From NCBI GenBank assembly GCA_018221135.1, contig JAAOYB010000030.1:1-44733 (forward strand): DNA of 44,733 nt, read 5' to 3'. Under the pieces are notes generated by a model. The model was not told the origin of the DNA and made no database searches. It worked only from the letters and a program-made list of their open reading frames with translations. Source of the stretch: Candidatus Woesearchaeota archaeon. GTDB taxonomy: Archaea > Nanobdellota > Nanobdellia > Woesearchaeales > BM511. Below are positions 6,262 through 22,144 of this stretch, piece by piece. Each line of letters opens with the position of its first letter. The first letter of the stretch is position 1. The position numbers were made by a program, and so were the translations under genes.

Positions 6262-6293
6262 GAAACAATGTTCCAAATATGAAACATTGTTTC
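6262..6293. promoter_or_regulatory. Perfect 11-bp inverted repeat, likely operator
   Basis: GAAACAATGTT and AACATTGTTTC are exact reverse complements separated by 10 bases. The element lies between the divergent helicase and winged-helix regulator genes, directly upstream of a TATA-like box (about 6305-6312) that would drive the regulator. This position suits autoregulation by the adjacent regulator, possibly also controlling the helicase. Confidence 0.6.
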
Positions 6294-6331
6294 AAAAAAG
6301 AAATATTTATATATTTTCGAGGAAAAACAAT

Positions 6332-6877
6332 ATGGTAATAATGGATGAAAAAGAAACCATACTAAAAGCGTTATTCGACGAGAAAATATTACAAATACTA
6401 CAAGTATTCTTCGAAGACGATGAAAAACAATACTATCTGCGAGAATTAGCAAAGATAACAGGGGTTTCACCAGCAACAACGTATAGGATCCTAAAGCGAC
6501 TCTTAACTCTTAGAATACTCGAGAAAACAGAGATAAAAAACCTTAAGATATACAAATTAAAGAGTACGGAAACAACAGAATTCTTAAAAAAAGTACTGTA
6601 CACAAAACCAGATCCTCTAAGTATCTTCGTCGAGAAAATAAAAACTATACCTCAAGTTGAACTAGTCGTGATGCATGCAAAACCTCAAAAGAGTGGAGCG
6701 TTTGTAATGATAGTAGGAGAAGACATCCCTAAGAACATTATTGACGAGATAGACTTAGAAATAGCGAATATTTACGACTATAAAATAAAGATTTTGCCTT
6801 TAATACAGGATCTTTATGAAGGCTTAGATAAGTCTCATTCAGGCTATAAAAAGGTTCTTTTTAGACGACAAAACTAA
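6332..6877 (+). CDS. Winged-helix transcriptional regulator with C-terminal sensor-like domain
   Basis: About 181 residues. The chosen ATG at 6332 lies about 24 bases after a TATA-like box, giving a leaderless transcript; a second ATG follows at 6341. An in-frame ATG at 6287 lies inside the operator palindrome and is unlikely. The N-terminal half (QYYLRELAKITGVSPATTYRILKRLLTLRILEKTE) is a clear winged helix-turn-helix. The C-terminal half (VELVVMHAKPQKSGAFVMIVGEDIP) resembles a nucleotidyltransferase-like or small-ligand domain often found behind archaeal wHTH domains. It stands upstream of the RNA hairpin array and ftsZ on the same strand. The target is not known. Confidence 0.75.
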   Translation: MVIMDEKETILKALFDEKILQILQVFFEDDEKQYYLRELAKITGVSPATTYRILKRLLTLRILEKTEIKNLKIYKLKSTETTEFLKKVLYTKPDPLSIFVEKIKTIPQVELVVMHAKPQKSGAFVMIVGEDIPKNIIDEIDLEIANIYDYKIKILPLIQDLYEGLDKSHSGYKKVLFRRQN

Positions 6878-6925
6878 GATTTTTTTGTTTTAAATATGAA
6901 ATAATATAGTTTGGACTATAGAAAA

Positions 6926-6935
6926 CTTTATAAAT
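6926..6935 (+). promoter_or_regulatory. TATA box for a transcript starting near 6955
   Basis: CTTTATAAAT preceded by GAAAA (BRE-like) is one of the best TATA matches in the 6878-7249 gap. The expected start, about 25 bases downstream, falls just before the first hairpin of the array at 6967 and about 295 bases before the ftsZ start codon. It is predicted only from sequence. Confidence 0.5.
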
Positions 6936-6966
6936 TATCATATCAAGTAGATTAATTAAAAAATTA

Positions 6967-7092
6967 GGTTTTTTGGCTAAAACTGTGGGAGTTTTACACA
7001 ATAACTTTTGGCGAAGTTAAGTGTTAAAAAATGTTTATTTGGCGATAAATTAAACCCACAAAAAACGAATCTTGTGAAAATTTGGCGATTTC
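6967..7092 (+). ncRNA. Array of four hairpins sharing a UUGGCG/UUGGCU loop upstream of ftsZ
   Basis: This is the main content of the 372-base gene-free stretch 6878-7249. Hairpin A 6967-6984: stem GUUUU/AAAAC plus a G-U pair, loop UUGGCU. Hairpin B 7002-7019: UAACUU/AAGUUA, loop UUGGCG. Hairpin C 7033-7050: UUUAU/AUAAA plus a G-U pair, loop UUGGCG. Hairpin D 7076-7092: AAAU/AUUU plus a G-C pair beyond a bulged A, loop UUGGCG. All loops are closed by U-A. Stems differ but stay complementary, and the G-U pairs work only on the plus strand. UGUGGG (6984-6989) can also pair with CCCACA (7055-7060), enclosing B and C. It could be an independent RNA or the long leader of ftsZ. Confidence 0.55.
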
Positions 7093-7138
7093 TAATAGAA
7101 ATAAATAGGCATAATCATTTATAAAGATTATCCTGATT

Positions 7139-7160
7139 AATAATACATATTAGTATTATT
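7139..7160. promoter_or_regulatory. Inverted repeat upstream of the proximal ftsZ promoter
   Basis: AATAATAC and GTATTATT are perfect 8-bp arms around a 6-base spacer. The element sits about 10 bases upstream of the TATA-like CTATATAATA (7171-7180) that could drive ftsZ with a 50-base leader. A second short inverted repeat, ATAATC/GATTAT (7111-7116 and 7126-7131), lies just before it. It could be an operator for ftsZ or the 3' end of the upstream RNA; there is no T tract after it. Confidence 0.4.
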
Positions 7161-7249
7161 ATAATGCAAGCTATATAATAAACAAGTTATATGGAGAGGA
7201 GTATAAAAAAAATAAAAATAAAATAAAGCACTAGGGGGCGAAAAAGACA

Positions 7250-8296
7250 ATGGAACAAATACAACCAACCAACATGGATTTTGAAGTAGGACAAGCAAAC
7301 ATCAAAGTAATCGGATGCGGCGGAGCCGGTAACAACATGGTAAACTGGCTATACAAAAAAGGAATTCGCGGCGCTGAAATCATAGCGACAAACACAGATT
7401 TGCAACACCTAAAAATAACAGAAGCAGACAAGAAGTTCTTAATCGGCAAAGACATTACAAGAGGATTGGGCTGCGGAGGATTCCCAGAAAAAGGAAGCGA
7501 AGCAGCAAGAGAAAGCCTAACAGACATAAAAGAATCGCTTAGAGGATCAGATATGGTATTCGTTTGTGCAGGGATGGGAGGTGGCACCGGAACCGGCTCA
7601 GCACCAATAGTAGCCAACGTCGCAAAAGAAGGAGGAGCAATAGTTATAGGAACAGTAACAATGCCTTTCAAAATAGAAAGAGCAAGAGTAGACAAAGCAG
7701 AATTCGGCCTGCAACAACTCCGACAAGTCTCAGACACAGTAATAGTAATAGACAACAACAGACTAGTAGCAATCGCAGGAGACCTACCTATACAACAAGC
7801 ATTCGCTGTAGCAAACGAGTTAGTCGCGACAATGATTAAAGGAATAGTAGAAACAATCGCTGTGCCAAGCTTAGTCAACCTAGACTTCGCAGATGTAAGA
7901 GCAATAATGACAAACGGCGGAGTAGCAGCAATAGGCGTAGGAGCAAGCGATACTAACAACAGAGTCGACGAAGCAGTAAAAGGAGCTCTCTCAAACCCAT
8001 TACTCGACATTAGTTACGTCGGAGCAACAGGGGCTTTAATACACGTAGCGGGTGGACCAGACCTCACCTTAGAAGAAATCTCAAGAGTAGGAGAACTAGT
8101 AACAGAAAGCTTAGATGACGATGCCAACGTGATTTGGGGAGCTAGAGTCTCAGAAGAGATGAAAGGAAAACTAACAGTGATGACTATCATCACTGGGGTT
8201 CAAAGCCCATGGATACTAGGAAAAGAAGCTCCAAGACAAAGCCTTGGAGAAACAGTATCAATGGATGACGAACTAGGAATAGAAATAATGAGGTAA
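7250..8296 (+). CDS. ftsZ: Cell division GTPase FtsZ
   Basis: 348 residues, close to the usual archaeal length. GTP-binding tubulin signature GGGTGTG at 110-116, nucleotide contact IGCGGAGNNM at 21-30, and the catalytic T7 loop in NLDFADVRAIM near 210. The C-terminus ends DDELGIEIMR, resembling the conserved short tail that binds partners such as SepF. It polymerises into the mid-cell division ring. A Shine-Dalgarno-like AGGGGGCG lies about 12 bases before the ATG, unlike the leaderless neighbours, so translation here is leader-dependent. The gene sits alone between a structured leader region and a structured 3' region, which suggests RNA-level control of its dosage. Confidence 0.95.
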   Translation: MEQIQPTNMDFEVGQANIKVIGCGGAGNNMVNWLYKKGIRGAEIIATNTDLQHLKITEADKKFLIGKDITRGLGCGGFPEKGSEAARESLTDIKESLRGSDMVFVCAGMGGGTGTGSAPIVANVAKEGGAIVIGTVTMPFKIERARVDKAEFGLQQLRQVSDTVIVIDNNRLVAIAGDLPIQQAFAVANELVATMIKGIVETIAVPSLVNLDFADVRAIMTNGGVAAIGVGASDTNNRVDEAVKGALSNPLLDISYVGATGALIHVAGGPDLTLEEISRVGELVTESLDDDANVIWGARVSEEMKGKLTVMTIITGVQSPWILGKEAPRQSLGETVSMDDELGIEIMR

Positions 8297-8430: not shown

Positions 8431-8474
8431 TCCCCCAAAGGACCATAATTCTTTTGGGGGACCCCCTTTTTTTC
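8431..8474 (+). terminator. Hairpin with T tract downstream of ftsZ
   Basis: TCCCCCAAA (8431-8439) pairs with TTTGGGGGA (8453-8461) over 9 bp, and the T-rich stretch CCTTTTTTTCT follows. This resembles an intrinsic terminator and would end the ftsZ transcript about 85 bases before the rubrerythrin start. Its G tract could alternatively pair with the upstream C tracts at 8362-8376. Confidence 0.5.
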
Positions 8475-21924: not shown

Positions 21925-22144
21925 CTTGTTGTAGGTTTGCGAATTGTTGGAGTATTTCTAAGCTTTTCAGAGCTTCTTTTTTGTCTAGTTTTTCAATAGC
22001 GAACCCAGCGTGTATTAATACGTAATCATCAATTTCTAATTCGTCAACTAAGCTGACGTTGACTTTTTTGGTTACTCCGCCGTAATCAACACTAGCACTA
22101 TCACCATTTATACTTAGAATCTTTGCTGGTATCGCCAAACACAT
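21905..22144 (-). CDS. hypC: Hydrogenase assembly chaperone HypC
   Basis: 79 residues. Starts M-C-L-A-I-P-A-K-I, with the invariant Cys2 that binds the Fe(CN)2CO unit and the HypD partner. It then presents the precursor to the large subunit. Two bases separate it from the Nudix gene upstream. Confidence 0.94.
   Translation of the reverse strand: MCLAIPAKILSINGDSASVDYGGVTKKVNVSLVDELEIDDYVLIHAGFAIEKLDKKEALKSLEILQQFANLQQDEQRKN

Follow-up and report, generated by a model that had tools for sequence, protein, structure and literature searches.

The ftsZ gene in the stretch of Woesearchaeota DNA analyzed here (44,733 nt, hereafter the window) is preceded by four tandem hairpins with nearly the same loop, and arrays of this type recur upstream of ftsZ in related archaea. 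Judging from the sequences, we consider it probable that the array encodes a sense/antisense RNA pair in cis, whose members would meet by several kissing loops and control ftsZ.

The hairpin array in the window

Inspection of the sequence placed all four hairpins where the original prediction had put them, with UUGGCU as the first loop and UUGGCG as the other three (Table 1). The array lies 160-280 nt upstream of ftsZ, and a covariance model of the hairpin (see below) scored hairpin 2 at 24.1 bits and hairpin 3 at 22.2 bits. The motif TTTGGCGA occurs five times in the window, with three of these copies in the array; five copies were reached in 2 of 100 shuffles of the window. The whole genome contains 29 such sites, 24 of them outside the window. 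Flanks were read at 22 non-array sites, namely the two inside the window and 20 of the 24 beyond it. The flanking stem comprises only 0-3 pairs at 20 of these 22 sites, whereas L043 has six pairs and positions 22132-22139 of the window have four. The same flank count gives 6, 6, 6, and 4 pairs for the array. Elsewhere in the same genome, TTTGGCGA sites are hardly ever flanked by a stem, and AT-richness therefore does not account for the array. Compared to shuffled sequences, the plus strand folds with a z-score of -0.41 (6960-7100) or -1.96 (whole leader) and the minus strand with -1.41. In this AT-rich window, folding energy alone is weak evidence and the comparative evidence is decisive. A search of Rfam gave no match to the array at or near the gathering score, none that was believable at relaxed thresholds, and no match here to the family named ftsZ-DE.

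Table 1 Observed and predicted features of the ftsZ locus in the window.
Feature	Position	Strand	Description
Predicted plus promoter	6920..6934	+	BRE AGAAAAC and TATA TTTATAAA, centre ~6931; start predicted near 6958
Predicted ftsZ 5' leader	6958..7249	+	~292 nt, array inside; start placed by TATA spacing
Predicted antisense RNA	6960..7094	-	~135 nt, four hairpins with CGCCAA/AGCCAA loops; ends at U6 opposite 6960-6965
Hairpin 1	6968-6972/6979-6983	.	plus strand GUUUU/AAAAC; loop UUGGCU 6973-6978; minus strand AGCCAA
Hairpin 1, outer pair	6967-6984		G-U
Hairpin 2	7002-7007/7014-7019	.	plus strand UAACUU/AAGUUA; loop UUGGCG 7008-7013; minus strand CGCCAA
Hairpin 3	7034-7038/7045-7049	.	plus strand UUUAU/AUAAA; loop UUGGCG 7039-7044; minus strand CGCCAA
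Hairpin 4	7078-7081/7088-7091	.	plus strand AAAU/AUUU; loop UUGGCG 7082-7087; minus strand CGCCAA; weakest of the four
Predicted minus promoter (antisense RNA)	7116..7133	-	TATA centre ~7121; 10/12 positions; start near 7094
ftsZ	7250..8296	+	348 aa; Pfam Tubulin 1.2e-45, FtsZ_C 2e-32; presumed regulated gene

Several other features of the locus were recorded. An HTH gene (6287-6877, plus strand) adjoins ftsZ, and its homologues flank 32 further ftsZ loci (89 searched, its own included); it is a conserved neighbor and a candidate regulator. On the 3' side of ftsZ, positions 8431-8468 (plus strand) form a strong terminator-like hairpin with 12 pairs and a T tail. The ribosome-binding stretches of array-type ftsZ genes (7222-7249 in the window and the ftsZ starts of the other loci) contain GGGGG in 50 of 81 cases compared to 17 of 55 others, and the GAGGTG ribosome site in 1 of 81 compared to 18 of 55. 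GGCG is present in only 3 of these 81 stretches, and the idea that the loops mimic the ribosome site of ftsZ was rejected.

Conservation among relatives and confinement to ftsZ

Upstream regions of ftsZ were collected from 99 genomes of relatives (90 regions used) and from 80 contigs titled Candidatus Woesearchaeota, Nanoarchaeota, DPANN, or plain archaeon. Removal of 21 duplicates left 149 regions, of which the 141 with at least 400 nt upstream were counted and the other 8 left out. TTGGCG-loop hairpins are present in 85 of the 141 regions, which supports the proposed linkage to ftsZ; they amount to 175 hairpin-like sites under a criterion that scores G-U and A-C equally, and they concentrate about 150-350 nt upstream of the gene (cluster -325 to -150). 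At least one ftsZ carries the array in 57 of the 74 whole genomes with a usable region, and in all 13 two-ftsZ genomes examined exactly one copy does. The hairpins are absent from 56 of the 141 regions; some of these have other repeated loops, and in others nothing was found. In other orders of the class, 12 of 43 regions, counted by eye, contain TTGGCG or TTGGGC two or more times, and some of these copies are plainly in stems.

The stems vary among families yet stay complementary, with up to 11-12 pairs, and the closing pair itself varies (TA, GC, AT, or CG). When sites were selected by the loop only (TTTGGCG[AG]; 88 sites in the ftsZ regions of 53 relatives, window included), the stems had a mean of 5.4 pairs beyond the closing pair, compared to 1.5 when the 3' flanks were redealt (largest of 2000 permutations 2.1). 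Likewise, all 233 TTGGCG sites have a mean of 5.4 Watson-Crick pairs out of 8, compared to 2.7 after permutation (largest of 1000: 3.0). The covariation score, calculated from 64 rows pre-selected for pairing, was 0.96 compared to 0.21 for shuffled and at most 0.23 for slid alignments. The permutation tests and the covariation among relatives bear out the original prediction of selected RNA-type hairpins with a fixed loop and changing stems; related genomes keep the loop together with flanking complementarity, unlike a DNA motif. The shortness of the motif and the AT-rich stems might speak for DNA operator sites, or for chance in AT-rich DNA. This explanation retains next to no probability, as it is refuted by the covariation: 53 genomes, most of them from different families, keep the complementarity even though the stems have changed in sequence, and TTGGCG has a single orientation (233 copies on the ftsZ strand compared to 11 of CGCCAA in the 141 regions). 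The pattern expected of an operator, conserved flanks with no need for complementarity, was not found in the permutation tests.

A covariance model of the hairpin, built from ftsZ leaders, was run on the genomes of 60 relatives, as had been proposed together with the prediction, and matches were sorted by eye. Of the 72 matches at E <= 0.01, ftsZ leaders account for 64 (G037 checked). Four are at contig ends in three genomes, where the start of ftsZ may be cut off, and four are elsewhere. Matches in ftsZ leaders are expected by construction because the model was trained there, and the weight lies in how few others there are; strong matches are almost confined to ftsZ leaders. In the genome of the window, a lone TTGGCG hairpin (L249 2901-2926; G000:C30:5400-5425) lies about 310 nt before an S-layer-like gene, with a TATA box between hairpin and gene. 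This match was taken as chance and not as a regulon member, and the matches in G011 and G009, being single or inside an ORF, were likewise rejected. In G014, a 24-nt stretch with one hairpin of the ftsZ array recurs in a long closing stem (L253 1260-1400; G014:C2:20259-20399), with its own TATA box and ahead of a small RHH-like gene without Pfam match. This second copy, possibly a trans target or a decoy, is absent from the other searched genome of the genus (1 of 2 genomes), and homologues of the RHH gene have no consistent TTGGCG near their starts.

Predicted facing promoters and the strand that probably folds

Both strands of the 86 array loci, each of which has one or more hairpins with TTGGCG or TTGGTG, were scanned with a BRE-TATA consensus; a sigma-70 promoter scan of the whole stretch was set aside as uninformative for archaea. 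The plus-strand TATA box that had been proposed just before the array was recovered in the window, 42 nt before the first loop, and in 64 of the 86 loci a BRE-TATA with at least 11 of 12 positions lies 35-65 nt ahead of the first loop, compared to 5 of 1191 background bins. Plus promoters between array and ftsZ are nearly absent, with four sites at -150 to -100 in the 86 loci. The leader of the presumed target is predicted to be transcribed through the array, as expected for antisense control.

On the minus strand, 26 of the 86 loci have a BRE-TATA with at least 11 of 12 positions located 35-65 nt beyond the last loop, compared to 12 of 1064 background bins, which is 27 times background. With at least 10 of 12 positions and a distance of 25-110 nt, 60 of the 86 loci have such a site, with the mode at 53 nt and most at 48-57 nt. 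Columns outside those scanned are also biased (A at -16, A at -13, G at +7, purine at +27), and the profile includes a pyrimidine-rich tract and then the purine 27 nt beyond the TATA centre, as expected of a start site. The minus promoter of the window matches only 10 of 12 positions and lies 39 nt past the last loop, off the mode. A predicted promoter on the opposite strand within the target leader is what an antisense RNA would have. The predicted promoters point toward one another, which places the predicted start of each transcript at an edge of the array. In 31 of 47 loci, the gene upstream of the array is encoded on the plus strand, and the minus RNA therefore does not represent the leader of a divergently oriented, conserved gene. 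A terminator-like A-run is a weak signal (24 of 86 loci compared to 17 of 86 in a control stretch). The putative antisense RNA is proposed on the basis of promoter position, wobble asymmetry, and minus-strand folding.

An A-C mismatch on one strand is a G-U pair on the opposite strand. With all stem positions scored, the ftsZ strand has 53 A-C, 18 G-U, and 63 other mismatches; at stem positions 2-7, A-C outnumbers G-U by 45 to 4. A-C exceeds G-U at 29 loci and the reverse holds at 7 (sign test, p = 1.6e-4), and by subset the asymmetry is significant for whole-genome loci (23 to 4) but not for named-contig loci alone (6 to 3, p = 0.25). Among the 62 loci with at least two hairpins, the mean z-score of folding against shuffles is -2.67 for the minus and -1.04 for the plus strand, and it falls below -2 at 43 loci on the minus strand and at 10 on the plus strand. 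The original prediction had assigned the G-U wobbles to the plus strand only; instead, the wobbles of the relatives and the fixed distance of the minus promoter indicate the minus strand. There is counter-evidence: in 43 of the 62 loci the plus strand has the lower raw folding energy, and T-G outnumbers C-A at the closing pair by 15 to 1, opposite to the minus bias. Overall, wobbles and fold z-scores suggest that the hairpins are under structural selection in an antisense RNA, to which the closing pair is contrary. An inverted repeat around the minus TATA box, outside the proposed antisense RNA, has no strand bias (9 G-U compared to 8 A-C). As a control, it speaks against mutation in general as the source of the wobble bias. 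This stem scores at least 8 in 20 of 60 loci compared to 8 after shuffling and, being weak and without strand bias, was dropped as a further element.

It could be that the plus-strand leader alone matters and that the minus TATA boxes are by-products of AT-rich DNA. The stronger signal of the plus promoter, the mediocre minus promoter of the window, and the preference for T-G at the closing pair point this way. We regard this as very improbable given the excess of minus TATA boxes at a fixed distance and the wobbles and fold z-scores that favor the minus strand. The minus RNA, which has its own promoter and folds well, might also be an sRNA that acts in trans on other mRNAs and is merely located in the ftsZ leader. 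The recurrence in G014 upstream of a small gene would suit such an sRNA, yet only one of the two searched genomes of that genus has it, and the conserved plus promoter at the array edge would be left without a reason; we judge this explanation to be quite improbable.

Loop identity, proposed kissing loops, and known systems

UUGG, a YUNR sequence, is the mostly constant part of the loop; the remainder varies by lineage, whereas the loops of any one locus are mostly alike. Regions that lack TTGGCG often have a different repeated loop. In some lineages the loops are switched as a set per locus to UUGGUY/UUGGUAA, UUGGACA, or UUGGGC. YTGGACA loops are found in L168 and L169, TTGGTY or TTGGTAA loops, in as many as 10 copies, in the clade that includes L176, L182, L189, L193, L198, and L217, and further loops in L220 (TTGGTAAA), L057 (TTGGAA), and L104 (GGGGC), the last of which departs from the YUNR motif present in the main loop and most variants. 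The ftsZ leaders of L323, L317, and L193, all of one clade, contain 8-10 TTGGT repeats, some outside clear stems. In an FtsZ tree of 103 sequences, which leaves out L057 and L104 and has rough bootstrap support, the alternative-loop loci on the tree nest inside TTGGCG groups; low-count labels (L148, L219) may be due to chance because labels were assigned by motif count. Pairing with tRNA 3' ends (T-box-like UGGN) was dropped by reasoning, because no single tRNA matches the loop bases that follow.

Sameness of the loops within a locus is not required by pairwise kissing, and one protein partner would also explain it. The main rival explanation is a protein that reads the common loop, in either the leader or the minus RNA, and that acts as a repressor of ftsZ or is itself titrated by the RNA. 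A single reader would account for loops that are alike per locus and switch as a set between lineages, and several equal sites in an array suggest cooperative binding. However, the protein would have to follow a 3' loop half that varies freely, a regulon is unsupported by model matches that fall so largely in ftsZ leaders, and the minus promoter would be unexplained if the protein acted on the leader. We consider this explanation unlikely. For the protein-titrating platform of the original prediction we found nothing in favor, as the hairpins matched by the covariance model occur almost only at ftsZ and an identical kissing loop is known from antisense control.

A cis-encoded antisense RNA with kissing loops fits because the promoters face each other, the hairpins are complementary, the loop contains YUNR, and the array is nearly confined to one gene. 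The plus promoter would give rise to an ftsZ mRNA with a leader of about 300 nt, whose 5' part would form the hairpins with UUGGCG loops, and the minus promoter to the antisense RNA with complementary hairpins and CGCCAA loops. The sequences themselves show the hairpins and their covariation, the facing promoters, the minus wobble bias, the conservation, and the near-confinement to ftsZ; we infer that both RNAs are made, that their loops kiss, and in which direction and at which step control would act. Loop-loop kissing may take place at several hairpins simultaneously, aided by UUGG as a YUNR U-turn, and further pairing would follow. The expression of ftsZ would be lowered, with the mRNA blocked or destabilized, or through convergent transcription. 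Because an exact transcript and exact pairing are predicted, direct testing in vitro or with a heterologous reporter is possible. If true, most families of an order would have retained an RNA switch on ftsZ that is also present in other orders.

Multi-hairpin protein-titrating RNAs of the CsrB/RsmY type carry GGA in their loops. They likewise form a row of hairpins sharing one loop sequence, whereas the ftsZ array is found almost only near ftsZ, is read from inside the leader of its presumed target, and has UUGGCG loops, or CGCCAA on the opposite strand, in place of GGA. In E. coli, antisense RNAs have been described at ftsZ, and Haloferax volcanii has an antisense signal close to ftsZ2 (PMC8303175); both are likewise at the 5' end of ftsZ, and the covered part of that source describes no hairpin array or shared loop. 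A published archaeal ftsZ regulator is the RHH protein CdrS of haloarchaea. Beyond the plasmid systems discussed below, a literature search that covered few subscription papers found neither UUGGCG with an antisense RNA nor a Woesearchaeota ftsZ antisense RNA. Within reach of this partial search, and with no Rfam match, the family appears to be undescribed, as originally supposed. A YUNR loop speeds RNA pairing in the sense-antisense pairs hok/Sok, pIP501 RNAII/III, and bsrG/SR4 (PMC6562991). These systems are bacterial with no known sequence relation, and here the YUNR-containing loop is repeated; in pIP501 two loop pairs are engaged at once, similar to the multi-loop pairing proposed here.

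Control in IncI-complex plasmids relies on one hairpin, compared to 2-4 or more at the ftsZ arrays, and there the target loop additionally pairs with a CGCCAA site elsewhere in the leader to form a pseudoknot. No such second site was evident at ftsZ, given the 11 CGCCAA copies in the 141 regions. The setting differs as well, with an archaeal chromosome and ftsZ here compared to a replication gene in the plasmids. The resemblance lies in the arrangement and the loop: Inc RNA/repZ of ColIb-P9 and RNAI of IncB and IncK likewise place an antisense RNA opposite an mRNA leader, with kissing as the start of pairing. UUGGCG is the loop in the title of the ColIb-P9 antisense study (Asano 1998, cited in PMC10724649), and the reference list and primer table of PMC10724649 likewise give 5'-UUGGCG-3' as target loop and CGCCAA as antisense loop of IncI-complex plasmids. 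We tentatively propose, at close to even chances, that the FtsZ level across much of the class around Woesearchaeales is set by an antisense RNA that is encoded on the chromosome and has several like kissing loops, that UUGGCG either arose independently of the plasmid copy-control loop or descends from it, and that the loops diversify like plasmid incompatibility loops. If true, a division switch would use the same loop as plasmid copy control.
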